Assembly: GCA_023634235.1 (NCBI GenBank)
Contig: JAMKCF010000016.1
Coordinates: 3,936,501 to 4,000,500, forward strand
Direction of reading: 5' to 3'
DNA length: 64,000 bases
Source: Pisaster brevispinus
Taxonomy: Eukaryota > Echinodermata > Asteroidea > Forcipulatida > Asteriidae
In this document: positions 23,493 to 63,947 of the stretch, piece by piece
Layout of the letters: each line of letters opens with the position of its first letter
How positions within the stretch are numbered: position 1 is the first letter of the stretch
Notes under the pieces: generated by a model
The model's database searches: none
What the model was told of the DNA's origin: nothing
The model's input: only the letters and a program-made list of their open reading frames with translations
Program-made: the position numbers and the translations under genes

Positions 23493-23572
23493 TTAACCGG
23501 CGCATACAAGGAAACGGCGGGCTCCTTTCTTTCGCTTATCACAAGTGCAAATTTGTCCGTTCCTCTCGCATT
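23493..23572 (-). CDS. Gene B exon 3 (cysteine exon)
   Basis: 80 nt. It joins in phase 1 to exon 2 and ends in TAA. It carries all four cysteines of the product; the spacing between third and fourth is 12, against 14 in A and C. Confidence 0.8.
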
Positions 23573-24881
23573 CTGCAAAAAAGAGGGGGAAAATAGAATC
23601 AAATTAATAAGAAGAAAAAATAGAGAGAGATAGAGAGAGAGAGAGGAGGAGGAGAGAGAGAGGGGGGGGGGGAGAGTGGAAGAGGGGGAGAGGGGGAGAG
23701 AGGGAGAGGGGGAAAAGCGAGAGAAAAAAAGAAGAAGAAAAAAGTGGCAAACGACTCTTTAAAAAATGCTCAAGAATACATTATATGTTTAGCCCTAACG
23801 AAGAAATAAGTGAGTTTTGACGCACTGACTTTACACTTTGCTCTATGGAGACCGAAGACAATAGGAAAAACAGAACTCCACATGGGAATTTGAAATAGAC
23901 TGTGGGATGATATTAAATACAGAATAGAGAAAAGAACCAATGAAGTCTCCGCAGAAATGTATATTTGTGAACGGGTGTAACCAGTGTAAGCTTTTAGAAT
24001 GCAACAAATGGATTTATTGTTTGACAACTATTGAAACATACGAAGGCAACTTTGTCTTTCAAAAATACCGCCAATTGCTGTTGTTAAATTTCGATGCTTA
24101 TTACGCACGAGCGCCATCTTAAAAAAACATACTGCAATGCATCTTGGGAAACCAAGTAAGTACAATTAAAAAATAAATCGAGCTGCCGAGATGGACTTCT
24201 AGCTGTAGTTCACATGTAACTCTGCCAGGTTTTATAGTTGTGCATTTCACCCCGAATCCTTTACGTGACGATCATGCGCACTGGGACTTTATAGGCTCTA
24301 GTAATAATAAACCCACATTATTGTTAAAAAACATATTTAAAGGCTTGCGCAAAAATATGCTAAAATATAATTCACAACATTGCAAATATAACTGCGATTA
24401 ATTGCGCGAATATTTGCAACAAAAAATCCATAACTTGCGCAATTGCGAAGAACTCCCCCACCACGAAATTTAGAATTTTCTTCGCACAGTTATTTGCGAA
24501 AAATTTCACGATATCGCAAATAATTTATATGCAAACTCTTGCTAGATACTTCAAGAAAACAAAGAAACGCACATTTGCGATATGCCATGCCTCCTTCAGG
24601 GCCATCCCACTTACTAGAACTTAACACAATAAATTGCGAAATTGTAAATAAGGCAAATACTCAGAAATATATCAAGATTTGATAGACCATAACTTACCTT
24701 CCATGTCTTCCAGTGTCAGAGGGCCGAGCTTTTTGTTGCCGCCTCTGTTTCTTCCTTTGCCTCGCTTCACAAACTCCAGTAAATCATCCACGGGCAGGTA
24801 GTCTTCATCATTTTCATATGCCATGACAAAAACCGTCATAACGGCTAACGCCATCAAGACTAGGAACAGTTTGGCCGCCAT
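23493..24881 (-). CDS. Peptide gene B: secreted four-cysteine prepropeptide, 87 aa
   Basis: Coding: 24,881-24,698, then 23,572-23,493 on the minus strand. The first part encodes a signal peptide (MAAKLFLVLMALAVMTVFVM then A), an acidic pro-segment (YENDEDYLPVDDLLEFVKR) ending in Lys-Arg, and a basic linker (GKGRNRGGNKKLGP). Donor GAAG/GTAAGT, phase 1. The second part begins after TTTTTTGCAG and encodes ECERNGQICTCDKRKKG and then FLVCAG-stop, giving C-x6-C-x-C-x12-C. Acceptor before the ATG is TTTGTAGATTTCCAG; the leader exon and TATA lie near 27.8 kb. The product should be secreted, cut after KR, and held by two disulfides; the predicted mature piece of 47 residues is strongly basic. I know no matching named family. 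Function is unknown; a peptide hormone or host-defence peptide would fit the layout. Confidence 0.85.
23620..23730. repeat. GA-rich simple repeat
   Basis: Purine tract of AGAG and GGGGAG units, just upstream (minus sense) of the last exon of gene B, inside its intron. Confidence 0.9.
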
Positions 24882-24885
24882 TGCT
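24698..24885 (-). CDS. Gene B exon 2 (signal and pro-segment exon)
   Basis: Begins four bases before the ATG, as in A and C where the ATG also follows closely after the acceptor. 61 codons plus one base, donor GTAAGT. Confidence 0.87.
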
Positions 24886-24914
24886 CTGGAAATCTACAAA
24901 AAGTGGAGACGAAT

Positions 24915-26868
24915 TGTTTAAGGGGAGTTTAAACCAAGCTACCAACTCACAGGGACACTATGGGATTGGCTGAGAAATTCAGTGATTACTTCATCACCAA
25001 GATAAGAAATCTTCGGACTGATCTTGACACATCCGTCTCTACTCACCCTATCAGTGCAGGTACATACGAGTCTAACCCCAATATCCCTACACTCGACAGG
25101 TTTGAACCGGCCTCTGAAGTTGAAATCATAAAACTGATAACTTCATCACCTTCGAAATCTTGTGACATTGATCCCATCCCAACTTGGCTGATGAAAAGGC
25201 ACTTGTCTGTCCTGTCTACCCCTATCACCAAAATTGTCAATTTGTCGCTTCATAATGCAGCTTTTCCTCAGCGTTTCAAAAGTGCTATCGTCACTCCACT
25301 CCTTAAAAAGCCATCGCTAGACTCAGAAAATCTCAAAAATTTCCGCCCAGTTTCCAACCTCTCATTTATGTCGAAAATAATTGAGAAAGTAGTTGCCGCC
25401 CGTCTGACTGATCATCTGTCTGAACACAATCTGTATGAGCCCTCTCAATCTGCATACAGAAAATATCATGGGACAGAAAGTGCATTGTTGCGCGTACATA
25501 ATGATATTCTTCGCACTGTGGATGATAAACGTGGTGTGTTCTTAGTCCTTTTAGACCTTTCCGCAGCCTTTGACACCATAGATCATACTATCCCTCTGGG
25601 ACGCCTGAAATCTTTGGGTGTCAAGGGACTAGCTCTCCAATGGATTGAATCTTACATCAGCAACCGATCTCAAGCCATCAACATTAATGAAGTTTTATCA
25701 TCACTTGCCACGCTCTTGTTTGGTGTTCCCCAGGGATCTGTCCTTGGGCCACTCTTCTTCACCATTTACTCTAAACCAATAGCTACAATTGCAAGAAACC
25801 ACGGACTCCATGTACATTTGTATGCAGACGATACTCAACTGTATCTTTCTTTTGATTTAAATTGTTCTGATGAGCATTCTGAACGCAAGCGTTTTGAGCA
25901 ATGTGTTTCTGATATAAAGTCATGGATGACCAATAATAAATTAAAACTCAATGATGATAAAACGGAACTGCTCATAATAACGTCTAAACATAACCAAGAC
26001 AAAATAATCAATCACCGGATGCAAATTGGCACTGCTACTGTAACATCATCTGCAAATGCTCGCAATCTTGGGATCATGTTTGATAGCACAACGTGCATGG
26101 AATCCCATGTGAAGAAAATTTGTCAATCTGCTTTTTACCATATTAGAAACATTAGCAGCATTCGTAAAATCCTCAATAAAAAGTCTGCCTCTATCCTTAT
26201 ACATGCTTTCATTACATCCAGGCTTGATAATGGAAACTCATTGCTTTATGGTATTAACAAGCATCTTATCAGAAAACTGCAAAATGTCCAGAACGCTGCT
26301 GCTCGGGTATTATCTAAAACACGTAAATATGATCACATCACACCTGGTTGAAACAGCTTCACTGGCTCCCAGTCTGTCAAAGAATTAAATTCAAAATCAT
26401 TTTGCTTGCCTGGAAAGCTTTGAATGATAGGGCTCCTCACTATCTCAAAGAAATTTTCTCACCATATACGCCAACTCGCAATCTTCGCTCTACAAACCAA
26501 CTTCTTTTAACTGTCCCTAAAACAACCACTTCCAACGGCGTTCGCGCTTTTTCTGTATCTGCACCCACACTCTGGAACTCTCTTCCTTTACATATCCGAG
26601 CTACAAAGTCTCTGGACATTTCAAAACATTGCTAAAAACTCACCTATTCAATATTTCTTATGATTGACTTTCTGTTTTGTTTTTTTTACCACTTGTTTTT
26701 GCCGACACGTTTAAATGTAAATCTGTTTTATTCAATGTGCTCTTATTTCTTTCTAAGCTACGTAATTTGTTACTCTGTTTTTTGTTTGGTTTTTTTATGC
26801 GCCTCGGAATAAGTTTAGTCTTAGATAGATGGCGCTTTACAAGTTTTAATTATTATTATTATTATTAA
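24915..26868 (+). mobile_element. 5'-truncated non-LTR retrotransposon (LINE, CR1/L2-like)
   Basis: A reverse transcriptase frame runs from 24,960 to 26,351 with ordered motifs: FRPVSNLSFMSKIIEK, VLLDLSAAFDTIDH, GVPQGSVLGPLFF and HLYADDTQLYLSF (the catalytic YADD is intact). A frameshift near 26,345 separates the conserved C-terminal part (LKQLHWLPVCQRI, FSVSAPTLWNSLP, 26,348-26,635). No endonuclease domain precedes it, so it is 5' truncated. The 3' end is a short (ATT)n tail at about 26,848-26,867, usual for CR1/L2-type elements. It sits inside intron 1 of gene B in the opposite orientation, about 30 bp from the exon-2 acceptor. Confidence 0.92.
24960..26635 (+). pseudogene. LINE reverse transcriptase, frameshifted
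   Basis: The finger/palm/thumb core is open over 463 codons. One frame jump is needed at the conserved ITP-LKQLHWLP junction, so the copy is dead unless the shift is a sequencing error. Encodes RNA-directed DNA polymerase for target-primed insertion. Confidence 0.9.
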
Positions 26869-27779
26869 GTTGTGTCACTGTTTAATGCTTTTCTTTAAGC
26901 CCATAGGCCCTGCATTTCCTTCAGCACAACAATTTCAAAACAAAACAACGTGATGGCAAACACTTGATAAAGTTAGCATTGTACAAATAAACATACTTTA
27001 TCCTTCATATAAGATGTACATCTTTGGTCCCGACGCGTAGATCCTGTCAGCACATGCATCTACAATTTTTCTATATATAAAGCTAGGTTTTTTTTTGGTA
27101 ACAATCCCCGAACACGATTGTCTATTTCTATCCAAAAGCTAACTTGTTATAGAGATGAAAATGGTACTAAGTATATTACGAAATATGTTGGGAAAAATAA
27201 ATAAAAAACAATGGTTCGGAATTTTGAATGTGTGAAGGCTGCTGCCAGAGAGGCGGTTGACAGCCTAACGGCTACCGCCTTGCCAATTTGACGTTCTTGG
27301 TGAAAATGCTTGGACTTTGCTATTTTCTCAACAAGTACAAACTGTATTCAGCTCAAACTAAAAATGTTTACTTTTATTGTATCTGTATTTTGACAATTTC
27401 ACAACTTTGTGCCAAAAGACCCATCTATTGTCGACAATGTTTGCGAACAATTTCACGATTTGTACCTCAAGTTGTGAATACTGACGCCAATATTTACGAC
27501 ACTTTACATCACTGAAAACTTCGATGCACACGCACGTTTACGTCACATTTTGTTTGCGGACGTTCATGCTGTTAAGATCAACTCATTGAAGTCATTTCAA
27601 AGGTATTATCTGATCTTATCGTTTCTACTTCACAACTTAATTTTTTTTTTGTATTGCTGTTAAATTGCCCCATCCCAGGATTGCGTGCAGGCCCACCCAT
27701 TTTTACAACAAGCTTTCATACAGGTTTAAAAAAATGATACGCATATGAAGTTATTGAATAACATTACAAAGAAACTTAC

Positions 27780-27866
27780 CCTGGGCTGAGGCAAATTCTT
27801 GACAACTGTCTTGAAAACACCACCAGAAGTGAATAACCTGTACACCCTTACAAGCTCTTTATATAA
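27780..27866 (-). promoter_or_regulatory. Gene B TATA box and leader exon 1
   Basis: On the minus strand TATATAAAG (27,865-27,857) is followed about 80 bases later by a donor, CAGG/GTAAGTTTC, at 27,780. The stretch between is a plausible untranslated exon 1 beginning near 27,830. It points toward gene B exon 2, with an intron of about 2.9 kb, about the same size as in gene C. Confidence 0.6.
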
Positions 27867-28612
27867 GATTTTGCGAAGTAGGAACCATATGGTAAGTAAG
27901 CCCATAAGCAATAGCGCGTATCTCTCACTGACACCCTAATCAATTACCGTTTAACAATTAATTCAAACTTGTTAACCACAATTAAATTTAGACCAGGCAA
28001 ATCCGTTTTTTTTAATTAGTTCTGCTGTTGGGCATTGGCCATGTCGTATTTTTTTTTTTTACGTTTAGATTTTTATTAATGTTTAATGCACACGGTTTAT
28101 GGTCGACATCGCAACTTCAGTACCTTATGACCTAAACATTCTGTGTCCTTGCACTCGAGAAGGAAACGAAATGTGAAAAGTGTTCTAGCAATCTGGCTAC
28201 ATATTAAAACCCAGCAGCGAGGGACATGTTTGGTTGTAATGTCCATGTGTTACGTTGTCAGCAGATCCTATCAAGGTTTTTTCCATAGGTTAAGAAAGAC
28301 TGGTTTGCATTTTTCAACAATTATTTTATCTGTCAGAGTGTTGTTAACATGTGCACTTATTATCTGGGCTAATTAACTAAGGTTACTTGTTTTATTAATT
28401 TTGATTTAATTTACCAGTGACAATTGCATACAAATGCATACCACCCTCTGTGACCTCTTTTTGCAACACCGAGACAAGAAATACCCACAATATGGTGGGC
28501 AGCATTCAGCTGTTGGTTGCACTTCATTGTTGGTTGATTTTTGGAAACCTTAGTTTTAATGTAAAATCTTGTAACGATAAATTAAAAAACGACCAGACCT
28601 TGGATGAGGATT

Positions 28613-28800
28613 GGGGTCCCAGTTCCTGTCCGATTCCCAAATTTCCCTATTAAGGGATCTCCTCGCACGTCAACGAAAAGATAACTGAATATTTCTATGT
28701 CATCTTCTCTAGAGATTGATCTTTAGGCTCACGGAAAAAGTGAGGGTTTTTGAAGGTCCCTTGATTTCATTATCACGAATATACAATGGAAATAATGTTG
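28613..28800. repeat. Left arm of an inverted repeat pair
   Basis: Includes CAGTTCCTGTCC, TTTCCCTAT, CTCACGGAAAAAGTGAGGG-type and AAGGTCCCTTGATTTCATTA blocks that recur inverted at 31.28-31.455 kb. Confidence 0.75.
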
Positions 28801-29989
28801 GATAATTTTTTTTTCGGTTCAAGTAGAGTTTATTGCCACCAATCATTCTCTATTTACAACAGGTGGTGCAAAAACATACGGAAACGTACAAGAACACATG
28901 AAAAGGTTAAACATTTTAAAACAAGATAAATTTAAAAGCAAAACAAAAACATAAACATGGATTGATTTTATTATCACAAGGAAACGATTTATTGTTTTAT
29001 TCCAGGAGGAACAAACCCCAATCCTTTTGGAGGAATACACCATTTAAATTAATACAATAGAAGTTTACATCATGAAGGAAGAGTTTGCACAAGCATCCTG
29101 TTTAAATTAATTATTCGTATAGCATTGACATCTATATATACTTGGATAATCAATACACAATACTTTTTTCCTAAGAGGTCATTATAATATTGTGTCTTTC
29201 CGATACCTGACTTAATTCAGCATATACTCTATGACGAAAAAAAGCATTGATTTTTATACTTGCCATGGCCAGGGGTCACCCTGTCCAGTATGTAGTGCAT
29301 ACATATCTTGAGAAAAAAACCTGCATCCTGTGTTATTTAATTTCGTCCCCCATTGATCTCATCGAGTTTTATTGGGATTTCGCATAAAATGCTAAGCTAG
29401 GTTAAGGTCATAAACCAGACGCTAGAACGAGCACATTGACGTCTTCAAACGCATTTGTCTTCTTCTGTGATGATTTACTACGCAGTACTAATTACAAACT
29501 GTAACACTAACAAAGTCGCTTGTGTGCACTCGAAAAGAGTTTCCGGGTAACAATTGACTTGAATTCGAGTCCCCGTTGGACCTCTCCCGATTGTGGGATC
29601 AGATTGCTCCAGAATCTGTTTCAAATTGACACAGAAATGGGTTAAGTTGACGTATAATCTAAGTCAAATTAAGTTTCCACCACTTCCTGGTCAACTTGAC
29701 CCACTATGAGTCTCTGAAACCAAGAACTGTCAAGCTTTGGGGCTAGAGTAATCATTTATCCGGAGAGATTATTGCTTAACGCTTTAAGAACAGAAATAAG
29801 ACAACCTTGGGAATTATTAATCACCCGGAGATGGAACCACCTGTGCAGATCATTTGACAGTGATCATTATTCAATGTTTGCGCGTTAATAAAAAATAATA
29901 AATTAAAACCAACCCCTTGGGTGATTATTGATACTTAATTAACAACCGGTCCTGCTTAATTGATGAAGGTGATTAGGCTTCTGATGGGC

Positions 29990-30083
29990 GTGGCCTATTT
30001 TACTGAATAAAAGGGAATGCATTGACTAAGTAGCCGTTTATCGTCAAGATGATTTTAGATGCTAGGTCCAATTTCTACTGCAG
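29990..30083 (+). promoter_or_regulatory. Possible promoter and leader exon upstream of orphan exon D
   Basis: GAATAAAAGGGAATGC resembles a TATA element; about 70 bases later comes CTACTGCAG/GTAAGT, a good donor. Direction and position would suit a first exon for the orphan cysteine exon at 33.59 kb, but no signal-peptide exon is seen in between, and the site lies inside the 28.6/31.3-kb inverted repeat. Weak call. Confidence 0.3.
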
Positions 30084-30604
30084 GTAAGTCTTTTTGGATA
30101 ATCGTTTTATTTATTTATATCATGACAACTTTAATCCAATCGATTGCAGAGCGTTTGGAGGGAAAACAATAATAATAATAATAATAAAAAAATCAAATTA
30201 AACAATGAAGTATAAGAATGATGGGCATTTCATAATTTTGCATGATGGTAGCAGGGTTCTTACCATGACCATGTTACAGGCTCTCAGATTCAACTCATAT
30301 TTTCTTGTGCCACTTTTGCAAGAGGAAAAAGCGTTAATTACTTAGACGATCTTTATATGTTTATGATTTGTCTACATTTTTATAGTGTTCATCATAAAGT
30401 GCAATTTGCATCTCTGTGACGTCATGAATGAAATGCACGGCTAAACCCAAGATCGCCCTGAATATCGTTTAATGTTTCACTGCCCTTCATTTCGGGAAGT
30501 GCATGGCAAATCGGTCCGAAGTCAACTCTAAAAAAGAAAAAAATAATTAATGTCGGACTCCCGATCGCGACATTCACACACGTCAGTCAGACATGGGCGA
30601 ACAA

Positions 30605-31130: not shown

Positions 31131-31279
31131 AATTTATTTATATGTTTGTCAATTGTAGCTATGTATTGAAACGCAGTTTTTGTGCCAGAGTGTATTTACT
31201 TACGTCCCGGGTTAAATAACTGGTGTATTACCTCCAAAGGGATTGAGGTTTGATCCTTCTGAGATAAAACAAGAAATCA

Positions 31280-31455: not shown

Positions 31456-32722
31456 TATTACATATGATATGATAAAATATGATATAATGTGATTGACAAG
31501 ATATGATATGATATGATATGATATGATATGACATGACATGACATGATATGACAAGACATGATATGATAAGATATGATATGATATGATATGATATGATATG
31601 ATATATGATATGATAAGGTATGATATGATATGATATGATATGATATGATATGACATGACATGACATGATATGACAAGACATGATATGATAAGATATGATA
31701 TGATATGATATGATATGATATGATATATGATATGATATGATATGATATGATATGACATGACATGACATGACATGACATGACATGACATGACATGACATGA
31801 CATGACATGACATGACATGACGTGACGTGACGTGACGTGACGTGACATGACATGACATGACATGACATGACATGACATGACATGACATGATATGATAAGA
31901 TATGATATGATATGATATGATATGATATGATATATGATATGATATGATATGATATGATATGACATGACATGACATGACATGACATGACATGACATGACAT
32001 GACATGACATGACATGACGTGACGTGACGTGACGTGACGTGACGTGACATGATATGACATGACATGACATGGCATGACATGATATGACATGATATGAAAT
32101 GGCATGACATGACATGATATGACATGATATGATATAATAAGATATTATATGATATGATATGATATGATATGATATGATATGACATGATATGATATGATAT
32201 GATGTGATGTGATGTGATATGATGTGATGTGATGTGATGTGATGTGATGTGATGTGAAGTGATATGATATGATATGATATGATATGATATGATGTGATGT
32301 GATGTGATGTGATGTGATGTGATGTGATGTGATGTGATGTGATATGATATGATAAGATATGACATGACATGACATGATATGATAAGATATGATATGATAT
32401 GATATGATATGATATGATATGATATGATATGATATGATATGATATGATATGATATGATATGATATGATATGATATGACATGACATGACATGACCTGACAT
32501 GATAAGATAAGATATGATATGATATGATATGATATGACATGACATGACATGACATGACATGACTTGACGTGACGTGACGTGACGTGACGTGACGTGACGT
32601 GACGTGATGTAATGTGATATGATGTGATGTGATGTGATGTGATGTGATGTGATGTGATGTGATGTGATATGATGTGATATGATATGATATGATATGATAT
32701 GATATGATATATGATATGATAA
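31456..32722. repeat. Pentanucleotide satellite (TATGA/CATGA/CGTGA/TGTGA)
   Basis: About 1.26 kb of 5-bp units in homogeneous runs: ATATG, ACATG, ACGTG and ATGTG blocks. Longer blocks are themselves repeated (for example 31.53-31.62 against 31.66-31.74 kb, and 31.74-31.93 against 31.95-32.05 kb). The minus strand is open in all three frames over hundreds of codons only because no unit contains a stop. Confidence 0.97.
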
Positions 32723-33586: not shown

Positions 33587-33750
33587 CTTGCGACAAAATG
33601 GGCCAAAGATGCGTCTGTGATAAACGGTTGCCACTTACTAACGACAGGCGTTTCCTCGTCCGCGGTGAATATTTAAACCAACAGTGGACCTGGATGACTG
33701 GACCTAACATCTACCGAGAAGCTATATATATTTTAGTGTCTTACTTTTAA
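33587..33750 (+). pseudogene. Orphan cysteine exon D of the peptide family
   Basis: After a CCCCAAAACCCAG acceptor, phase 1 as in the family, it reads A-CDKMGQRCVCDKRLPLTN and then FLVRGEYLN. The fourth cysteine is Arg (CGC for TGC), and the frame runs on to a TAA at 33,748, about 20 residues beyond the normal end. The following 200 bp resemble the 3' UTR of gene A (CTTACTTTTAAATAATGCCA, GGCATTTGTGTGAACAAATT). No signal exon is found upstream. It stands about 340 bp before the TATA box of gene A, so it is a tandem neighbour that has lost its front half and probably its function. Confidence 0.7.
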
Positions 33751-34089
33751 ATAATGCCAAATAATTTATAATGCTTCAAAACTATACTTGTTTCAACCAA
33801 AGATGAATTGCTGAACTGAATTTGTGTTGTTTTGGGGGAAACCAATTATAAAAATGATTTAGAGGCATTTGTGTGAACAAATTGTCAATGTGCTGGAGCA
33901 GGCACATCTGACAACCTTTTTATGAAATCCCCGTCATAACCCGAGCCTCATAAATAAGCAACAATCGCTTTGTATGGACGGTGAAGTTACAATTGTTATT
34001 GGAATTTGTGGTTTGTTCGCAGCAGTGTTTTGATACGCGTTACTTCACATGATGTTGGTGATACCGGATGTTTCGGAGCATGAAACCCC

Positions 34090-34186
34090 CATATAAGGGG
34101 GGACACTCTGGACAAACAACAGCAAGCACAGACTCAACTCACCTACCTGAAGCAACTTGACTTGTTCTTCTAAGTATACAGTACCG
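34090..34186 (+). promoter_or_regulatory. Gene A TATA box and leader exon 1
   Basis: CCCCATATAAGGGG (TATA 34,090-34,097), a likely start near 34,120, an untranslated leader (CAGCAAGCACAGACTCAAC, CTGAAGCAACTTGACTTGTT) and donor ACCG/GTGAGT at 34,186. The same arrangement, in inverse, is at 63,855-63,947. Confidence 0.72.
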
Positions 34187-34290
34187 GTGAGTACATGCTT
34201 CTCTTTATGCTAACAGAAATGCACATTCGTTCACATTGAGTGTTGTAACGCAGTAAACCGAAGTAAACAATTTTGGGTTTTACAAAAAAA

Positions 34291-34362
34291 CATTGACTAT
34301 AACGGGACTTGAACCTGCTACCTCGGGATGTACAGGCGCTCTACCAATCAAGCTATCTTGCA
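34291..34362 (-). repeat. tRNA-derived SINE head in gene A intron 1
   Basis: ACGGGACTTGAACCTGCTAC and GCGCTCTACCAATCAAGCTA are inverse B and A boxes. Its counterpart in the other arm is at 63,645-63,720, so the insertion predates the duplication. Confidence 0.75.
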
Positions 34363-35676
34363 CTATGCTGGCATTATCCTTTAGTTAGTATTCTCACTAT
34401 TTTGTCAATATTCGTTTTATTTGTTCTACATAATATCAATCACAAATTTACGCGCCAGTTATTCTTGTTTACTATTATTTGATAACTTAAGTTAATGTAG
34501 GACATTGCAAGTTGATTCTGTTTTAGCTCATAGAAATGTTTATATAACATGTTTTGGTATCTTGTTGAGTATAGTTTAGGACAGAGAGTTTACATCCAGT
34601 TTATGGTCGTAGACAGAGTTCATCGTAATTATTTTAAGCTTTTGCCGAAAATGAAAGATTTTTTTAGTTTCGAATGCTCATCAGTTATAAAGGTATTAGA
34701 AGTACTTAATCTTTCAAGAAGTACCTACTGCCTATGTTGAGGAAACAGCTTCTGGGCCACCTTTGGTTATTGATTGCGGCATTTAAAACTAATTTGATGA
34801 TTTTAGTGCGAGAAATATTCACAGGTTTTTGCTGTGTGTGTGTGTGCTCTCACTTCTGGTACCTTATGGAGACCAAGGACAAAACAAAAATAGGAAAATA
34901 AAAGGACTCCACATTGAAATTCTAAAGACGGGGGTGCTCCACAAGGAAATTTGTGTACAACGTCTAAGGGAAACTGTTAAAGTGCAGGGACAAAGGAAAG
35001 AACAGAAGAATGCCCCACAAGGATGCATTTTTGAGAATCTGCGTGTGTGCGTGTGTGTGTGCCCTTACACGTGCCAACTTACGGGGTATTTTTAACAATA
35101 GAACAATGCTACCCCACAAGGTTTTCTTTGTTCAAGTGGTACCCCACAGAGGATTTCTTTAGAAAAGGTAATAATAGAACAACAATGGAAGTACCCCGTA
35201 ACTGCTATATGTAAGGTTGTGTGCGTGTTTTCTGTAATTGTTGTGAAGGAGGCTGACGAGCCCAGTCGAGCTCAGTCTCCCCTTTCTAAGCACCACGCAA
35301 TGTTTTACACTTTGTTCCTGGACAGAACTTTTACTCACTAACTTTGTTAACTAATCATGCACTTTGCGCAATAGAAAACGAAATGTAACTCAAAATTTCG
35401 CAACTAAACAGAAGCTGAAGTTTCCAGTTTTCGCTAGTTTTAAATTAATATTAATTTCGTTTCAATTGCTTATCATTTAACGTATGTCTAAACTATTTTT
35501 CAGCCAATAAATATGTTGTAAGCCCGTTGCTAACAAAATATGTAAACATTTAGTCGGAAATAACGATCTCAAACTCCTTTCTAGATTTTGCAAGAGAGAG
35601 AAAAATATATCGAAGCTAGCGTTTCGAGATTGTTTTAAGAACGTTACGCCCCGCCCGAAAAAGCAAACAAAACACC

Positions 35677-36451
<775 letters not shown>

Positions 36452-36497
36452 CTGTTCCCTTCTTTCAATGAATATTCATGTATTGTTTTTTTTTCAG

Positions 36498-36682
36498 AAA
36501 ACAAAACTTAAAAATGGTTTCAAAGATTTTTCTGGCTGTCATGGCTCTGGCCGTTCTGACCACATTTGTCCTGGCCGAGGAGGAGAACTACGCTTTCGAT
36601 AACCTAATGGAGCTTCTGAAGAGAGCTGAAGAGATCAATAAAAAGAAAACGTTGGACCTGATCCCAGCTGAGGACGTGGAAG
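36498..36682 (+). CDS. Gene A exon 2 (signal and pro-segment exon)
   Basis: Sixteen untranslated bases, then 56 codons plus one base. Almost identical to gene C exon 2 in the signal region; only Ile/Val differs in the first 21 residues. Confidence 0.88.
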
Positions 36683-37694
36683 GTAAGTAACACGTCTTAC
36701 CGATAGATAGGCATGGAGCACACCTGATCTTATTAGGGGTTCATTTTCCATAAACTCTGAGAATTTATTGGGTTAGTAATGAACAATGACACAATTCGTC
36801 GCTCCTACCACGAAGTGACCTATCTGTAAAAATCACAACTTTTTTGCAAGTATCTTTTTATTCAAATTAGTAATACACTCGTGGCTGTTACCATTTTCAG
36901 CAAGTCTCGATATCTTTTATGTAATACTTTCGTAATAAACTAATTAGTATAAACTAAGTATCACTGGATTTACCATTTTTATTTCCACGAAGTGACCTAG
37001 CTCTTTACGCAAACCCTACAGCGCAGTTCAGGCACGAGTGTATGACAGTTTGCATTTTCTCAAAGAGACCTATCTGGAAGCCTAGTATTCCACGCAATTT
37101 GTCTCATTAATAAGCGTTTGTTTGACGTATGTGTTTTGAAAATATTTAACTTTTTAATTCTAGTCCCAGTAATGAAAACGCGTTGAAAAATCTGCACGAA
37201 TTTATTTTTTGGCTTTAAACTAAATAAAACTTCAACCACGATCTACTACTACACTGTTGTTATTATTATGAATATAATGTTTGTGTTTTATATATTTGTT
37301 GACAAGAAAAGTCACTTTCTGGTACGAGCGACAAAAAGAGGAAAACAATAAATACATTTAATATTGAAATACTCAAAAAAGGACAGTTAAAGCTGTCCGA
37401 CGTTTGTAAGCCTCAAAATCAACTTTACACATTTCTGCATTAATTCAAAACAAACTCACTCTTACTATATTTGCAGTACACGTGCTGACCTCATGTGGAA
37501 TAACATAAAATTCTTCCACTGAAGATTAAGCCATTTTATATGTTAAATTGCTAAGCTGATAAAACATTTCTGATTTACCCTTTTTTCCCACAAATCCAGC
37601 TTGCGACACAGAGGACCAATATTGCATCTGTGATACCCGGCTGCCAGTTACTCATGCCGATCATGTCATCGTCTGCGAGGATTTCAAGAGATAA
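36514..37694 (+). CDS. Peptide gene A: secreted four-cysteine prepropeptide, 87 aa
   Basis: Coding: 36,514-36,682 and 37,600-37,694. Exon 2 follows TTTTTTTTCAG; the ATG was chosen because it starts the hydrophobic core (MVSKIFLAVMALAVLTTFVL) and matches gene C, while an in-frame ATG at 36,478 lies before the acceptor. After the signal comes AEEENYAFDNLMELLKR with a Lys-Arg site, then a linker ending DLIPAEDVE. Donor GAAG/GTAAGT, phase 1. Exon 3 (acceptor CACAAATCCAG) encodes ACDTEDQYCICDTRLP and HVIVCEDFKR-stop: C-x6-C-x-C-x14-C. The predicted mature part is acidic, unlike that of gene B. AATAAA stands at 38,350. Secreted, disulfide-bonded peptide of unknown function. Confidence 0.88.
37600..37694 (+). 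CDS. Gene A exon 3 (cysteine exon)
   Basis: 95 nt: two bases completing the split Ala codon, 30 codons and TAA. The flanking intron end (GATTTACCCTTTTTTCCCAC) is shared with gene C. Confidence 0.86.
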
Positions 37695-38349
37695 CTTGAT
37701 CTAACATAGTGCCTTACTTTTAACTAAAGCCACATACTTTGTAATGCTCCAAAACAACTGACTACCATTTCGCAAGGAACTGCATACTTGGAAGTTAAAT
37801 TTATGGTTTTCAACCAAAAACTGAATTGCTGTCAAACCTAAGCATTGGTACTTTTTTGTTTTGTCTTAAGAGAACCAAGTTTAACTATTACTAGACATTT
37901 GTGTGAACACATTGGGCATGTGTTACAGTGAGCACTTAAACTGTATGAGTTAAAAAAAAAGTGTAGGCAATTCAGGAGATGACTTTATGCAATTCAGTAA
38001 AATTCGAGACTGCGATCAACAACAGACTGTCTTAAATTTATAATAACAAGGTCAAACCTTACCCTTTGACTAAAGGTTATATTTAGGAGGTCACTGAACG
38101 CTGTTTTTCATTCGCCTTGAACATTTAAGGATTTTTACAATGCATAGAAAATGCAAAACCCAAGTGAAACTTGATGAAGTTTCATTTCATCATCTGTCTT
38201 ACAAACAGGAGAACATAACAAAGACTGTTCAGCTCACTCAAAAAATGTTCAATGCCACTATACTAGGCATTACATTAACACAAAACAAAGACTCGAAAAG
38301 TAAAACAACTGTCGATGTTTTTTTTTTGCTCTTACTTTTGTTTTGTACA

Positions 38350-38355
38350 AATAAA
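38350..38355 (+). terminator. Gene A poly(A) signal AATAAA
   Basis: AATAAA about 650 bp after the stop; the inverse copy for gene C is at 58,536-58,541 in the same aligned position. Confidence 0.5.
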
Positions 38356-38399
38356 ATATTATAAATTAATTATCAACGAATGAACTGAAGCTCTAAATC

Positions 38400-38640
38400 T
38401 CTTGATTATGAGTTGGTTTTTGTTTATTTGTTTGTTTGTTTGTTTGTTGGGGTGTTTGTTTGTTTGTTTGTTTGTGTGTTTGTTTGTGTGTGGGGGGCTT
38501 ACGGGAGCAATGGGCCCCACAATATAATTTCTTGTTCAATCTGGACCCCTCAAGAGATTGCTTTAGAAAAGAAAATAATATAACAACAATGGCATGACCC
38601 CACAAACCGGATCCGTAAGGTTGTGTGGGCGTACGAGAGA
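38400..38640. repeat. TTTG repeats and a 'TGTGGGGTCC' dispersed repeat copy
   Basis: A (TTTG)n tract is followed by an inverse copy of the unit that is tandem at 57.7-58.35 kb and 61.5-62.0 kb (ACCCCACAAACCGGATCCGT). Confidence 0.75.
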
Positions 38641-39552
38641 TACATTGTTGGGTGAGTTTTAGGTAGGAACTGTAGTTGTTGTTGTTGTTTTGTGTGTGGA
38701 CTTTGTGGCGTTAAGCCCACAATGTTTTAACTGAAATATTAAATAAAAGAGATCATAGACAACACCTGTGGAAAGCCCATCACAATGTAGCGCTCCTAAA
38801 GAGGGCTGTCTGTCTGGTCTGTCTGTCTGTCTCTCAGCTGTTTGTGTGTTTGTTTGTTTGTTTGTTTTTTTATCTAGATATCGCCTTATATCTCAAAGCT
38901 GGGTCTCGAACCTACAATCTGCTTCTGAAAAAAAAATAGTTGCGTATATTTACAGGAACACGTTGCATTCGGAATAGGTGCTTTAGGCTATTACAAGCGA
39001 ATGTTATAAAATGAACATGTTTGGCAAGGAAAATATAAAGACTCACACAAATATACCTCGGAATTGTATGGTTTCCTTTTTACTTCGTAAACTAGCACAA
39101 AATGACAGATTGTGTTAGACACAAAGTAAAAGGAAAGCCACACAGTTTGAAGGGAAACTAAACATTACTTTCGTGTGAATCATTATATTCTACTTTCAAA
39201 ACATCTTTCCAACAATCAATTTATTAAAAACGCTTTTATATCCTAAAGCATTCAATTGAATGGCAACGTGTCCCTTTAATAATGTTAATATTGTTGCTGT
39301 TTGTGAATGTACACTCTTAGTCATCTTCTCAAAACTTTTCCAGGATAACTTGCGGATAAACTTCTCTACGGTTGATTCTCCAACCCGCAAAATATCCCTT
39401 AGCAGTTCAAATGTACTGTGGTTAACTTTTGATTGAATTCATAACGAACCAACTCACCAGAGAGTCGCCCGGAATCCACACCTCTGCTGGACCTATTAGA
39501 AAACAAACTTGATCTAATTTCCCTGGAAACCTGGACATGGAAATTGTTTAAC

Positions 39553-39637
39553 TTATAACGTTAAAAAGGCACCAGAGTGCCAGCGACCTATGCGTTTGAT
39601 GGCGTAAATAGGAACCACCCGCCCCCCCAAAACCCCC

Positions 39638-44367: not shown

Positions 44368-44369
44368 AG

Positions 44370-49359: not shown

Positions 49360-50405
49360 CATGGGGAACTTCTTGGGGTTTCCAACATCGGGATTGCCTA
49401 GGATGGTATTTCGCACAGTTCCACAAGCTCCGAATCCTAGCTCAGACAACTTGGAGAACAGAGCCGGGGCTAGTAAACCAATTGTCCATGAAGATGCAAT
49501 GTCATTTATGTTCGAGTACCAGCAAAAGGTTCAAGACTACCTTGCCTGATGCTCCAAGCTCGGATGGATGGTGTGTTTCAGGATCACATGCGAAGTCCCA
49601 GGCACATGTGTACCCTGTGTCTGATTCGTTTAATGAAAAACATTTCAATCCCCATTTGGCCGCCTTTCGTGGCATGTACTGTTTGAAGCGGAGTCGTCAT
49701 TTGAACTTTACCATAGTCTCGTCTGGGGAAAGGTTTTGTCCAGGCTGGTACACCCGCAGGAATGATGGTAGTACAGTGTCTAACAGTGGGCGTACTTTGT
49801 GAAGTTTGTCGCGGGGAGAGTCCTCCTTCACATCTTTGTTTTTGGTGAGGTGAAAAAAAACCCCGAAGGATTAAAGTAAATCGGTTACGAGCCATGGTTG
49901 CCGAGTACAGGGGACTTCGTAGAACTTCAGACCTGGACCAATGCATGGAGTAACGAGGCCTTTTGTTGATTCCCATGCAAAGAAGTAGGTCCACGAATGC
50001 CATCATTTTGGGTACATTAGTTGGTCTCTAAGCACGCTGATTTTCGGCACCCGCAGACAAAGTTTGATCAGCATAACGATTGGTCTCATCTACCATCATC
50101 TGCCACACTGCTGGACAAAAGTACAGTTTGAAGATTTGTATGGGTGAGAACTCACTGAAATCTTCGGTAGCCCCGGTGTTTGCCGAAAAATACACGGGCG
50201 GTTGCCGGTTGTAAGACTTTACTTCACGCCATCCACACCGGAAATTCAGTGTCTTCTTCTTGGATGAACATGATGTCGATGTGGAGGCGATGGGCTCATC
50301 ATCACTGTCTTCTTCCGACACGTGCTGAATCATCGTCAGAGAACATGTCGGACCCGCTATCAGCAAAGATTTCTTCCAAAATTCTAGCATTTTCATCGGC
50401 CATCA
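49360..50405 (-). pseudogene. piggyBac-type transposase, multiply frameshifted
   Basis: On the minus strand, in order: acidic N-terminus (MMADENARILEEIFADSGSD), FSPIQIFKLYFCPAVWQMMV, DETNRYADQ, YWSRSEVL-like and MARNRFTLILRGF, then RFKQYMPRKAAKWGLKCFSL, DTGYTCAWDF, DNWFTSPALFSKLSELGFGA and CGTVRNTILGNP. These are the successive blocks of DDE_Tnp_1_7 transposases, spread over at least four frames, so the gene is dead. Terminal repeats and TTAA sites were not identified. Confidence 0.88.
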
Positions 50406-54440: not shown

Positions 54441-54445
54441 AAGAG

Positions 54446-56137: not shown

Positions 56138-56330
56138 ATGATAAGGAGTCGTCTGACATACTGGAACTTGTGTACTGATGCTGCGGGTTCCATTGGCTTT
56201 TGGCGCATTTTTTTGATGGATGTGGCTGCAGGGCCGCTGGCCTTCAAACTTTGCGTCTCAACCATCCATTGCATTCTTACCCTGGCCTCTCAGGGAGATC
56301 TAGTCAGTACGCAGTTGCCGACTCTTCAAG
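56138..56330 (+). pseudogene. DIRS/Ty3-like RNase H fragment, right-arm copy
   Basis: YWNLCTDAAGSIGFWRIF keeps the TDA-GSIGFG-like start better than the left copy; the middle part (SDN strand) is deleted. Confidence 0.65.
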
Positions 56331-57679
56331 AGATTTTTTTTCTTTCTTGGGCGGGGGGGGGGGGGGGAGAGGGGGATATCTATTTACGCCATCAAAAGCA
56401 TAGATCACTGGCGCTCTGGTGCCTTTTTTACGTTATAAGTTAGGCGATTTCCATGTCCAGGTTTCCAGGGAAGTTAGATCAAGTTTGTTTTCCAATAGGT
56501 CCAGCAGAGGTGTGGGTTTCGGGCGACTCTCTGGTGCGTTTGGCAACCCATGCGTTGGCAGTCCCGGCCCAGGTTCGTTGGTAAGTTTAAATTGGGGTAC
56601 AGCCCCACGTTATTCCCCGGTTGCCTGACCAGGTGGGTGTGGGACTCCCCAAATAACTATGCTACATATTGGGTCTTATGATTTGGCCAGCGTTTTTCTT
56701 CACGCTTCGACTGAGGATAATTTGGGCAATTGCGCAATGCAAGGAGCAATTTATAGTGTACACGCTGGTATGGTCAGATCTTTACTTCCTTGCATGTTTT
56801 ACTAGGGCGCTGTTTCGCAGCCTTCTTTAGAGCGGGTTCGTTATGAATCTAACCATAAGTTAACCACAGTACAATTGAACTGCTTAGGGTTTTTCTGCGG
56901 GTTGGATAATCAACCGTAGAGAAGTTTGTCCGCAAGTTATCCTGGACAATTTTTGAGAAGATGACAAAGTGTGTACATTCACGAACGGCAACATTATTAA
57001 CATTATTAAAGGGACACGTTGCCATTCGATTTTAATAAAATGATGGTTGGAAAGATGTTTTGAAAGTAGAATATAATGATTCACACAAAAGTAATGTTTA
57101 GTTTTCCTTCAAACTATATGGCTTTCCTTTCACTTTGTGAACTTACACAATCTGCCATTTTGTACTAGTTCACGAAGTAAAAAGGAAACCATACAATTTC
57201 GAGGTATATTAGTGTGAGTCTTTGTATTTTCCTTGCCAAACATTTTCATTTTATAACGACCGCTTGTAATAGCCTAAAGCACCTAATCCGAATGCAACGT
57301 ATCCCTGAGAATATACGCAACTATTTTTTTTCAGAAGCAGGTCAGGGGTTCGAGACCTAGCCTTGTGATATTAGGCGATATCTAATTGAAAGAACAAACA
57401 AACAAACATACAAACAAACTGACAGACAGACAGACAGACCAGACAGACAGCCATCTTTAGGAGAGCGACTATGTGGGCTTTTCCTAGGTGTTGTCTTTGA
57501 TCCATTTTCTTTAATCTTTCCTGTTAAAAACATTGTGGGCTTCACCCCACAAAGTAAAAAAAAAAAAAAATAAAAAAAAATAAACACAACTACAGTTCCT
57601 ACCTTAAAATCAGCCCACAATGTCTCTCTCGTACGCCAAGACAGACAGACAGACAGACAGACACACACACACACACCCA

Positions 57680-58360
57680 CGCAACCTTAAGGATCCGGTT
57701 TGTGGGGTACTGCTATTGTTGTTCTATTGTTCCCTTTTCTAAAGAATTCCCTTGTGGGGCCCTATTGTTCCTATTGAAATTGCCTTGTGGGGTCCATTGT
57801 TCCATTGTTAAAAGTACCCCGTAAGTTGGCATGTGTAAGGGCACACAAGTGTGTAAACACCTCCAATCGGGGACCTCCCATTGTCCCTCTTTTGTTTGGA
57901 CTCTAACTTTTTGGCAACAGCTCCCATTGGTTTTGTACACAATTTCTAACTGGGGACCTTTACCCAACCGGGGACCCTATTGTCCTCTTTTGTTATAGGT
58001 CCACGGTTTGAATGTGAAAACAAACTCGCACACACAACCTTACGGATCCGGTTTGTGGGGTACTGCTATTGTTGTTCTATTGTTCCCTTTTCTAAAGATT
58101 TCCCTTGTGGGGCCCTATTGTTCCTATTGAAATTGCCTTGTGGGGTCCATTGTTCCATTGTTAAAAGTACCCCGTAAGTTGGCATGTGTAAGGACACACA
58201 CACACACCCACGGCACCCACAACACCTCACGGATTGGGTTTGTGGGGTCCTGCCATTGTTGTTATATGATTCCCTTTTCTGAAAAATTCTCTTGTGGGGT
58301 CCAGGTTGAACAACAAATTATCTTGTGGGGGTCCATTGTTTCATTGTGGAAAAAGCCCAA
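57680..58360. repeat. Tandem 'CTTACGGATCCGGTTTGTGG' units with (AC)n
   Basis: About 165-bp blocks (ATTGTTGTTCTATTGTTCCC, CCCTTGTGGGGCCCTATTG, AAAGTACCCCGTAAGTTGGC) at 57.68 and 58.04 kb, with a partial third at 58.22 kb. Further copies at 61.48 and 61.86 kb and inverted at 35.1 and 38.5 kb. Confidence 0.9.
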
Positions 58361-58535
58361 CAAGCCGGGGCACTCCCGTAACCCCCCTCCCACACACACA
58401 CAAATAAACACGCAAACACCCCAACACACCAACAAACAAACAAACAAACACCCCAACAAACAAATAAACAAAAACCAACTCATAATCAAGAGACTTAGAG
58501 CTTAAGTTCATCTGTTCATAATGAATTCAGAATAT

Positions 58536-58541
58536 TTTATT
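58536..58541 (-). terminator. Gene C poly(A) signal AATAAA
   Basis: Aligned inverse of the gene A signal at 38,350, about 630 bp after the gene C stop. Confidence 0.5.
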
Positions 58542-59170
58542 TGTATACAACCAAAGAAAGAAAATGAGAAAAAAAATCGAAAGTTATTTTATTTTTGACT
58601 CTTTGTTTTGTGTCAATGTATTGCCTAGTACAGTGGCATTGAACAAGTTTCAAGTGAGCTGAACAGTCTTTGTTATGTTGTCCTGTTCGTAAGACAGATG
58701 ATGAAATGAGACTTCATCAAGTTTCACTTGGGTTTTGCATTTTCTATGCTGTGTAAAAATCCAATATAAAAAACAGGGTTCAGTGACCCAAATACAACCT
58801 TGGTCAAAGGGTACGGTTCGACCTTCTTATAATAACTTTAAGACAGTCTGTTGTCGATCTCAGTTAAATCATACCGGTATTCTTTTTAACTTCCTGCAAT
58901 TTTGTTTTTTACTTACACAGAATAAGTGCTTACTGTAACACATTCCCAATGTGTTCACACAAATGCCTAGTAATATTTATACTTGGTTCTCCTAAAACAA
59001 AACAAAAACAAGACCAATGCTTAGGTTTGATAGCAATAACATTTTTGGTTGAAAACCAGAAATTTAACTTAAAAAGTATTATGCAGTTAATGCGAAATGG
59101 TAGTCAGTTGTTTTGGAGCATTACAAATTATGTGGCTTTAGTTAAAAGTAAGGCACTATGTTAGGTCAAG

Positions 59171-59265
59171 TTATATCTTGTAATCAAAGCAGTTGAGGAC
59201 ATACTTGTCGTGAGTATCTGGCAGCCGTTTATCACAGAGGCACCTTTGGCCCAAATAGTCGCAAG
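59171..59265 (-). CDS. Gene C exon 3 (cysteine exon)
   Basis: 95 nt, ends TAA; all four cysteines present. Exact positional counterpart of 37,600-37,694 in the other arm. Confidence 0.86.
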
Positions 59266-60897
59266 CTGGATTTGTGAGAAAAAAAAGGGTAAATCAGAAA
59301 TGGTTTATCAGCTTAGCAATTAAACATCAAACATGGCTTAATTTTCAGTGGAAAGGGTTAAGTTATTACACAGGAAGCCAGCACGTGTACTGCAGATACA
59401 GTAAGAGTGAGTTTGTTTTGATTTAGCAGAAATGTTTAAAGTTGATTTTTAGGCCTACATTTGTTGGACAGCATTCACACTGTCCTTTTCTGAGTATTTC
59501 AATATTAATTAGTGTTTCTTTGTTTTTGTCGCTTGTACCAGAAAGTGACCTTTCTTGTCCACAAATATATAAAACAAAAACATTATAACCACAATAATAA
59601 CAATAAGTAGTAATAGGTCGTGGTTGAAGTTGTATTTCTTTAGTTTTTAAGCCAAAAATAAATTCGTGCAGATTTTTAAATGCGTTTTTATTACTGGGAC
59701 TAGAATTAAAAGGTTAAATAATTTCATAACACATACGTCACTTCGTGAAAAGGAAAAACAAAATTGCCCGCAGTGCGCTATGTACAAACAAACGCATATT
59801 AACCTGTCGTGGTGCCATGGTACTGCAATCAACAGTCCGTTTTTAATTAAATAATCAGTACTCCGCCATTTATTATTTTTGTTATCTAAAAAAATCCAAG
59901 TTCCTCATCTACACCTAGCCAAATAGCATGGACAAAGTATTGTTCCCATCCGGGGTCTCTTTCACAGACACAAAATCCATCAATGACCAGCTCTTCCGGA
60001 ATTCCCATAGGAATTGTACAGCAATTATTTATCATTGGGGCCAATGGACACTGCTAAGTGAATTGAACCATATGGTATACAATCTACAGAAAAGACAAAT
60101 GTGGGCTGATCTAAAAAACAAATTGTGCTTGAATATGTTTGATTTAGTCAAAAGGGTCTATATCTAAAGGTTTTGGGCCATTTGCAAGTGATTGGGCTAT
60201 CCGCAAAAAAAAAAAAAAAAAATACAAGCAAATACAAACGGACTGTTGATTGCAGTCCGATGGCGTAAATGTGTATACATTTTTTGATGGGGTCACGCAA
60301 GGTTTTAATGAGACAAATTTCGTGAAATACTAGGCTTCCAGATAGGCCTCTTCGAGAAAATGCAAACTGTCATACAATCGTGCCTGAACTGCGCTGTAGG
60401 GTTTGCGTACAGAGCTAGGTCACTTCGTGGAAATAAAAATGGTAAATCCAGTGATACTTCGTTCATACTAATTAGTTTATTACGAAAGTATTACATAACA
60501 TATATCGAGACTTGCTGAAATGGTAACAGCCACGAGTGTATTACTAATTTGAATAAAAACATACTTGCAAAAAAGTTGTGATTTTTACAGAAAGGTCACT
60601 TCGTGGTACGAGCGACGAACTGTGTCATTGTTCATTATTAACCCAATAAATTATCAGAGTTTATGGAAATTGAACCCATTATAAGATCAGGTGTACTCCA
60701 TGCCTATCTATCGGTAAGCCGTGCTACTTACTTTCAATGTCATCAGCTGTGATTGGGCCCAGCTTTTTCCTTTTCTTGCCATTACCATCTCTCTTTACAA
60801 ACTCCATTAGGTCATCGAGAGCGTAGTCCTCCTCGGCCAGGACAAATGTGGTCAGAACGGCCAGAGCCATGACGGCCAAAAAAACCTTTGAAACCAT
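59171..60897 (-). CDS. Peptide gene C: secreted four-cysteine prepropeptide, 86 aa
   Basis: Coding on the minus strand: 60,897-60,732 and 59,265-59,171. Exon 2 encodes MVSKVFLAVMALAVLTTFVL then A (signal), EEDYALDDLMEFVKR (acidic pro-segment with Lys-Arg) and DGNGKKRKKLGPITADDIE. The donor is GAAA/GTAAGT, still phase 1. Exon 3, after CACAAATCCAG, encodes T-CDYLGQRCLCDKRLPDTH and YVLNCFDYKI-stop: C-x6-C-x-C-x14-C, as in gene A. The linker KKLGPIT resembles KKLGPLT of gene B more than gene A. The three genes therefore share signal, cleavage site, intron phase and cysteine spacing while the released peptide varies. Function unknown. Confidence 0.88.
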
Positions 60898-60913
60898 TTT
60901 TAAGGTTCGTTTT
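60732..60913 (-). CDS. Gene C exon 2 (signal and pro-segment exon)
   Basis: Acceptor TTTTTTTTAG, sixteen untranslated bases, then 55 codons plus one base. Too short to stand out as a long open frame. Confidence 0.88.
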
Positions 60914-60984
60914 CTAAAAAAAATAAATAAATAAATAAATACATAAATAAATTAGTTTTATTTGTAGAATATAGACAAAAGGGA

Positions 60985-61157
60985 ACAGGCGTTGTTGCTT
61001 TGTTGTTGTTGTTGTTTTTTGTTTGTTTGTTTTTTTGTCGTCGTTGTCGTTGTCGTCGTCGCCGTCGTCGCCGCAGCCGCCGCCACCGTCGCCGCCGCCG
61101 CTGTGGCGGCGGCTGCGGGGGCTGCTGCTACTGCTGCTGTTGCTGTTGCTGCTGCTT

Positions 61158-61208
<51 letters not shown>

Positions 61209-61215
61209 AGTTACC
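60985..61215. repeat. Mixed GTT/GTC/GCC/GCTGTT trinucleotide tract
   Basis: Lies where gene A has the pure CAA tract, in the equivalent intron of gene C. Poly-Ala, -Leu, -Cys and -Gln frames here are artefacts. Confidence 0.93.
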
Positions 61216-61449
61216 TTTCGTTTTCTATTGCGCAAAGTGCATGAACAGTTCAGTGAGTAAAAGTTCTGTCCAGAAACAAAGTGTAAAACATTCAGCAAGT
61301 TAATGTTATCAGAAAACATCAAAATAGAGTTGCGTGGTGCTAAGAAAGGGGAGACTGAGCTGGACTGGGCTCGTCAGCCTCCTTCACAAAAATTACAGAA
61401 AACTTAAAAGTTAGACTTTAATCTTTAATCTGTACAAGTATATCTTTTG

Positions 61450-62040
61450 TGTCTCTCACACACACACACACACACACAACCTTACGGATGCGGTTTTTGG
61501 GGTACTGCTAATGTTGTTCTTTTGTTCCCTTTTCTAAAGAATTCCCTTGTGGGGCCCTATTGTTCCTATTGAAATTGCCTTGTGGGGTCAATTGTTCCAT
61601 TGTTAAAAGTACCCCGTAAGTTGGCATGTGTAAGGGCACACACACACACCCACACACACACACAGGTACAGCACTCCTATACATTAGAGGACACCTATTG
61701 TACTTTCTGTTGTTCCTGTATTGAAGCAATCCCCATTGGTTTTTTACACAAATGACTAGTGAGGACACCTGAAAACAAAGAACCGACTAGTGAGGACCTA
61801 TTGTCCCTATTGTAAAATGTCCTCGGAGGGTTGGCAATACAAACACACACACACACACTCACACCCTTACCGATGGTGGCTTGTGGGGTCCTGCTATTGT
61901 TGTTCTATTATTCCCTTTTCTAAAGAATTCTCCTGTGGGGTCCATAGTTCCACGAAGAATTCCCTTGTGGGTCCATTGTTCTGTTGTGCTTTGGACCCCA
62001 CAAGGACCGGTGGGCGTGCTAACCCTTAATTCTAAATCCC
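61450..62040. repeat. (AC)n and two more 'TGTGGGGTCC' units in gene C intron 1
   Basis: CAACCTTACGGATGCGG at 61.48 kb and CCCTTACCGATGGTGGCTTG at 61.86 kb start two blocks of the family tandem at 57.7 kb. Confidence 0.85.
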
Positions 62041-62849
62041 GCAAATCGATGACTTCTCTTTGTTCTCAAATTACTTGGACTTATTTTTTTTTTTACGTCT
62101 TCATTATTATTATTACTATTATTATTTTACACCAAAACAAAGTGAGGACGTCATCACTCTGTCAAACACCCGGATCCCATTTGTCAAAAGTCAATGGTTT
62201 CAACGGGTAGACACGCTCACACACAGCAAAAAAATATGTGCATTTTTTCTCGCACTAAATTCATCAAATTATATTTAAATACCGCAATCAATATTCAAAA
62301 GTGGTGTTGTGGCCTGCAGAAGCTGTTTCCTAAATTTTGACTGCAAGTATTTCTTGAAAAAAATAAGTACTTTTATTACCTTTATAAATAATGAGTATTC
62401 AAATTAAAAAATCTTGTATTTACAGCAAAAGCTTAAAATGTTTACGAAGTACTCTGCCTAGGACCACATACTGGACGTGAACTCTCTGTCCTTAACTGAA
62501 CTAAACTCAACAAGATACTAGTAAAATATATTTAAACATTTTAATGAGAACAAGTTCATTTTTATTTTATACATTTTTTGTTTTTATTTTATTTTATTTT
62601 TTCAAATTTACGGCATAAAATTTTCATTATAGTCCGAAAAATGATATCAAAACACGAATAAGCAACACATTTTTCTTTTATCATTTTCTCCTCCAAATTA
62701 CAAAATATAAATACATAAACATGCTCCAGATTTTACGAATCAATCAATTTTTTCTAGGCAAAAAAAAAGAAGAAAAAAATGATGAATTCCAGTTATTTGT
62801 TATCAATGTATTGCACATTTTGTCATATTTGAGTTTCAAGGATAACAAA

Positions 62850-63115
62850 ATATATCCCCTCCTCTTTTTCGCTTGATTTGAGCAGCAAAAGATAACCAAA
62901 TCTATCCCTTCCGCTCTTCGCATAGAGTTGAGGAACAAGGGATACAAAATTCTACCCCCTCCTCTTTTCGGCTAGAGTTGAGGAACAAGGGATAGACAAC
63001 TATATCCCCAACTCTTTTCGGCTTGGTTTGAGGAACAAGGGATATACAATTCTATCCCCTCCTCTTTTCGGCTAGAGTTAAGGAACAAGGGATATCAAAT
63101 TCGATTCCCTTACGA
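62850..63115. repeat. 50-bp tandem repeat, about five copies
   Basis: Unit contains CCTCTTTTCGGCTAGAGTTG and AGGAACAAGGGATA; copies near 62,880, 62,930, 62,980, 63,031 and 63,080. Present only in the right arm. Confidence 0.9.
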
Positions 63116-63644
63116 AAAGTATTACCACTCGAACCACAGATAAACTCTTTTTGGGGGCCAGCTTTCCAAATAATGAAGTATACAGTGTAAATAAAAAACA
63201 AAATACGTACTTTTCTCTGATATTATGATGTAATAAGAGTTTGCAGTACAATATGTTGCACATTTTTTTGATAACAAAAAAGTATACATACAAAAACTGA
63301 TACAAATATTTTAAACAGTGCACCCGATTCTTACTTTATTCCTCCAGCAATATTCTTCAATATTAAGAAAAACAGCATGATTTTAACATTTTGAAAACCA
63401 CTTTAAGAAAAGTTGCTACACATTACCCCCAAAAAAGGAAAAAGGAAACATTTTAGTTAAAAATGAACCTGTTTGAGCTTATTTATTTATTTTTTTAATG
63501 CAATGTCCGACATTACTACAAGTTACCAAGAAATACAAACAAGAGAAACGGGCTGGGTAAATGTGTAAATGATGTTAAAGTTTAACAAATAAAACAATTA
63601 TTGACAGACTAGTGAGAATGCTAACTTTAGGATAATGCCAGCAT

Positions 63645-63720
63645 AGTGCAATATAGCTCAGTTAGTAGAGCGCCGTATATTAATCCAGAGGTAGCAGATT
63701 GAAGTCCCGCTACAGTCAAA
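63645..63720 (+). repeat. tRNA-derived SINE head in gene C intron 1
   Basis: TATAGCTCAGTTAGTAGAGC and GCAGATTGAAGTCCCGC; paired with 34,291-34,362 across the duplication. Confidence 0.75.
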
Positions 63721-63854
63721 GGTTTTTTTTTTTTTTTTTTACAACTCAAAACTGTTTTCTTCGGTTGATTACAACACAACACTTCAATTGACTTTATTCT
63801 AAGTCAATAATAACGAATGTGCATTTCTGTTAGCATAGAGAAGCATGTACTCAC

Positions 63855-63947
63855 CGGTGCTGTACTAAGAAGAAAAAGTCAAGTTGCTTCAAGTAGGTGT
63901 GTTGAGTCAATGCTTGCTGTTGCTCGTCAACAGTGTCCTCTTATATG
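63855..63947 (-). promoter_or_regulatory. Gene C TATA box and leader exon 1
   Basis: Minus strand CCCCATATAAGAGG (TATA 63,947-63,940), leader CAGCAAGCATTGACTCAAC and CTTGAAGCAACTTGACTTTT, donor ACCG/GTGAGT at 63,855. Closely matches gene A and is followed by the same intron start (GTGAGTACATGCTTCTCT). Confidence 0.72.

Follow-up and report, generated by a model that had tools for sequence, protein, structure and literature searches.

What kind of peptides are encoded by three small neighboring genes of the sea star Pisaster brevispinus, and how did their mature parts come to differ so much in charge? The genes, designated A, B and C, are located in a stretch of 64,000 nucleotides (contig JAMKCF010000016.1, positions 3,936,501 to 4,000,500; hereafter the window, whose first letter is position 1 of all coordinates given below), and family members were sought within this 64-kb window. 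An earlier note on this DNA had proposed a clustered family of secreted four-cysteine peptides and had considered it possibly undescribed. We arrived at a different assignment: with a probability of roughly 85%, the window holds a cluster of CrAMP-type, i.e. PpCrAMP-like, host-defence peptide genes that arose by duplication, one of these events being the inverted duplication behind the A/C pair. A review (PMC11767717) describes PpCrAMP, from Patiria pectinifera, as cysteine-rich and antimicrobial, with a predicted beta-hairpin, and as the sole antimicrobial peptide known from a sea star; its antibacterial activity is listed in another review (PMC12466427).

Three genes built on one plan

Each of the three genes consists of two coding exons, with a GTAAGT donor, an AG acceptor, an open frame and a phase-1 intron positioned immediately before the first cysteine (Cys1). 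Gene A is encoded on the forward strand (first coding exon 36514..36682, second 37600..37694), genes B (24698..24881 and 23493..23572) and C (60732..60897 and 59171..59265) on the reverse strand. The first exon encodes the signal, an acidic pro-part ending in LLKR (A) or FVKR (B and C) and the start of the mature peptide, which is cationic in B; the second exon encodes the four cysteines followed by the stop and, among the window genes only in B, a C-terminal Gly. The precursors comprise 87 (A), 87 (B) and 86 (C) residues, and their cysteines follow the spacing C-x6-C-x-C-x14-C in the case of A and C, with x12 as the last interval in B (C-x6-C-x-C-x12-C). The splice junctions that the earlier note had put forward (36,682/37,600, 24,698/23,572 and 60,732/59,265) are exact in the sequence, with donor, acceptor and phase 1, and its description of clustered genes for a family of four-cysteine peptides that are secreted, probably processed and variable in their mature parts is supported. 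Its statement that the genes share a near-identical signal exon applies to A and C, whose signal parts agree at 60 of 63 bases, but not to B, whose exon 1 protein is 41% identical to that of A and 56% identical to that of C.

Assignment to the CrAMP peptides

When C was searched against the protein database, three matches were obtained up to E 10, the best of which (P0001, E 6e-24, with 60% identity across 92% of the C sequence) is an Asterias rubens protein carrying the UniRef name CrAMP-2 (NCBI LOC117301867). After this match the idea of an undescribed family was rejected, and PpCrAMP is covered in reviews. The earlier note had named a strong match to a well-described family as its refutation; the match is strong, but the family to which it leads is itself described only thinly. 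Profile searches with four and then eight sequences collected 10 and then 11 proteins up to E 10 (P0001-P0011) and ranked CrAMP-2 together with P0004-P0007. Five of the 11 relatives (P0001 and P0004-P0007) are full length; all five carry the pattern C-x6-C-x-C-x(12 or 14)-C, as do A, B and C, and their mature net charge, counted as K+R minus D+E after the KR site, ranges from +4 to +8. The other six contain first-exon sequence but lack the cysteine pattern, probably because they are unspliced readings. The nearest protein match was found for B, which is identical to P0004 at 84 of 87 positions (97%); P0004 is continuous across the B splice junction and, be it transcript-derived or an independent gene model, supports this splice. 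No protein identical to A, B or C was present among the database matches, and no Patiria protein appeared by name among the matches of the searches with C and the profiles.

CrAMP-2 resembles the window genes in its signal, acidic pro-segment, KR site, linker of the GPLT-DDM type and C-x6-C-x-C-x14-C pattern; it differs in having 84 residues, a mature charge of +4 and one residue after the fourth cysteine (Cys4); in A and C, five residues follow Cys4 and the charge is lower. The same architecture is seen in P0005 and P0006, two Asterias amurensis proteins that the source lists as uncharacterized and without a family name; they are 76% and 66% identical to B and, like B, have 12 residues between the third and the fourth cysteine. 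The listed contig sizes are equal for P0009 and P0011 (18890) and for P0001, P0005 and P0006 (15767093), which hints at clustering elsewhere, although equality is no proof of a single contig. Kim et al., in the original paper of 2018, reportedly described PpCrAMP as a peptide of 38 residues with four cysteines, two disulfides and a C-terminal amide, and its gene is said to contain an intron between the positively charged and the cysteine-rich parts. At the level of these descriptions, the intron plan is that of A, B and C. A review presents PpCrAMP as the prototype of an echinoderm peptide family. Strongylocins of sea urchins are likewise cysteine-rich antimicrobial peptides of echinoderms, characterized by six cysteines and a brominated tryptophan according to the reviews (PMC11767717, PMC12466427); A, B and C are unlike them in having four cysteines and no tryptophan, and the six-cysteine motif is not found in them.

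The relationship among the exons was established by two kinds of searches. With tblastn, exon 1 of A retrieved those of C (E 9e-18) and B (E 2e-9) from the window, and exon 2 of A retrieved that of C (E 2e-8). Profiles for which A, B, C and P0004 were set aside, so that they represented outside relatives only, with 20 windows shuffled in two-base blocks as control, recovered all three first exons with 58.8, 80.8 and 110.1 bits (best shuffle 8.8) as well as the second exons of B (48.4 bits) and C (22.2 bits) and a further second-exon copy called D (36.6 bits; best shuffle 13.9). When A, B and C were part of the family profile, it detected three first and four second exons in the window, the next scores being 8.2 and 7.4 bits. 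D, the fourth second-exon copy, had been missed by the earlier note; it is located on the forward strand (33587..33747), 2.9 kb before gene A, behind an AG acceptor, and retains the first three cysteines but fails the four-cysteine pattern with Arg in place of Cys4 and a later stop. The profile search revealed no first exon on the forward strand upstream of D within the window, and D is probably a relic exon. Its use as an alternative last exon of A was rejected because D lies upstream of A and no forward-strand first exon was found farther upstream in the window.

In Pfam, A and C had no match up to E 10, B matched GYF_2 at E 0.12 with 12.6 bits, below the cut-off of 25.8, and none of the eight members of the family alignment matched at E 0.1. 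Against solved structures, B gave a single match (E 2.4); the family profile gave five up to E 1, none of which was credited since the best, 8erw_A (E 0.0074), covers positions 10-42, that is the signal and pro part. Rfam yielded no match in the window at gathering scores.

Several points weigh against the CrAMP assignment. The kinship to PpCrAMP, the assayed founder, runs through the database name CrAMP-2, and the cluster is known here from DNA and protein sequence alone. The second exon of A scored 13.6 bits with the outside profile, i.e. at noise level (best shuffle 13.9), and was placed in the family because it matches C and because of its setting. An AlphaFold2 model of P0004 computed with five sequences contains a helix (57-65) and two strands (72-77 and 80-85) in a possible hairpin, but its mean pLDDT (predicted local distance difference test) of 55.7 is too weak for the model to support or oppose the published hairpin prediction.

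Given this assignment, B is most likely a secreted antimicrobial peptide that is cut after KR and disulfide-bonded. By analogy with the family, the secretory pathway would strip off the signal peptide, the acidic pro-segment would offset the positive charge of the peptide up to its cleavage after KR by a proprotein convertase, and the four cysteines would form two disulfides. The resulting mature B would have 47 residues and a net charge of +6, and may be amidated with loss of the last Gly, since a terminal Gly, found also in P0004 and P0005, suits C-terminal amidation; in this form it might damage microbial membranes at epithelia. The same features could in principle belong to a family of peptide hormones or neuropeptides, in which the prepropeptide, dibasic site and disulfides would serve receptor signalling and not the killing of microbes: a signal and an acidic pro-part followed by KR and a cysteine-rich peptide are known to fit hormones as well, and the terminal Gly that B shares with P0004 and P0005 is an amidation signal. 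We consider this very improbable, given that a relative bears the name CrAMP-2 and that reviews credit the prototype with antibacterial activity, that B is strongly cationic, and that the mature parts of A and C outpace their introns in divergence, which would be unusual for a hormone with a conserved receptor. C is weakly cationic (+1), and A, with a net charge of -7, is to be regarded as a CrAMP relative by descent and not as a typical member; judged from this sequence, A is unlikely to work in the fashion of a cationic antimicrobial peptide.

Divergence of the A/C pair

Genes A and C are contained in the two arms of an inverted duplication, one spanning 34037..39637 on the forward strand with gene A and the other 56354..64000 on the reverse strand with gene C, the latter reaching the window end; both arms are made up of matching blocks and are not continuous. 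At position 63947, where the stretch considered in the earlier note ended, no feature was found apart from a duplicated block that the upstream sides of C and A have in common. The two genes are much alike in signal, intron and 3' side, with identities of 60/63 in the signal, 379/399 and 389/439 in intron segments (counted without the mid-intron, where C is longer) and 257/290 in 300 bp of the 3' side. The mature code is less similar, with 41/56 in its N-terminal segment and 67/93 in exon 2. Taken together, the mature code agrees at 107/148 positions (72%) and the abutting noncoding DNA at 272/295 (92%; Fisher p 9e-8, with sites taken as independent). The step in divergence coincides with the exon edges: identity is 92% in the first 100 bases of the intron, 89% in the last 98 compared and 96% in the first 97 of the 3' side, compared with 72-73% in the mature code, and none of 133 overlapping noncoding windows of 93 columns fell to the level of exon 2 (minimum 78%). 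Estimates by the Nei-Gojobori method were, for nonsynonymous (dN) and synonymous (dS) divergence, 0.437 and 0.205 in the mature part and 0.022 and 0.121 in the signal.

That the mature code diverges more than the DNA abutting it suggests selection for change, and we consider it likely that the mature part of the A/C pair has been under such selection, whether on the side of A or of C. Other figures speak against this conclusion. The mature dN is not significantly higher than dS when these are compared alone (39.5/119.3 versus 5.5/30.7, Fisher p 0.19), the mature dS also exceeds the signal dS, and outgroups assigned eight changes to A and four to C and left 16 of 28 mature differences unassigned (p 0.39). 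The first two of these, together with the identity that varies along the inverted duplication, would agree with gene conversion having kept flanks and signal of A and C alike, so that the mature code would retain an older divergence without selection. This appears unlikely to us, as identity drops at the exon edges flanking the intron on either side, where conversion tracts have no reason to end.

The inverted duplication may have yielded A, with selection then driving its mature peptide from cationic to strongly anionic for a role with a new target or partner; we hold this tentatively, at less than even odds. We give equal weight to the reading that A, like D, is a decaying copy, in which charge was lost by relaxed constraint and no new role was gained. 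Decay would agree with the anionic charge of A, with a cysteine exon at noise level in the outside profile, with the relic D 2.9 kb before it and with the large AAC repeat adjoining its 5' side. However, A retains an open frame, four cysteines, the KR site and both splice sites, and the divergence of its mature code from that of C exceeds that of the adjoining noncoding DNA, which goes beyond a loss of constraint alone.

Flanking sequence and the meaning of the cluster

In A, B and C, the ATG is preceded at a distance of 12 to 16 bases by an AG with a pyrimidine-rich stretch before it, and a noncoding first exon is therefore likely. Upstream of A (35227-35300) and of C (61330-61403) lies a 74-base block with 96% identity between the two, and a GTAACT donor-like site is found some distance after it in both; the block is a candidate noncoding first exon or promoter. 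The repeat just upstream of gene A consists of about 262 AAC copies (35666-36448), and a CAACAG/CAA-type tract is present at the matching place of C, perhaps within a 5' intron. On its 5' side, gene B is abutted by a retroelement on the opposite strand, namely a reverse transcriptase open reading frame at 24960-26351 (+; Pfam RVT_1, E 8e-32) whose first ATG is 79 bases from the B ATG. A transposase fragment (DDE_Tnp_1_7, Pfam E 2e-8) is located at 49584-50006 on the reverse strand, and the window further contains about 250 copies of the 5-base unit ATATG (31462-32721, 91% matches) and a 21-base minisatellite of about 24 copies (6394-6888, 94% matches).

Among the titles and abstract openings listed, none was seen that dealt with a cluster of CrAMP genes or with selection on it, in a survey that mostly did not cover subscription journals and does not show absence from print. 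The CrAMP family is already known, and the window genes are further members and no new kind of system; what is noteworthy here is the A/C pair and its charge reversal. Little is known about starfish antimicrobial peptides, and a CrAMP cluster in which an inverted gene pair shows more divergence in its mature parts than in its introns offers a tangible example of rapid change in the innate immunity of echinoderms and supplies peptides to test.

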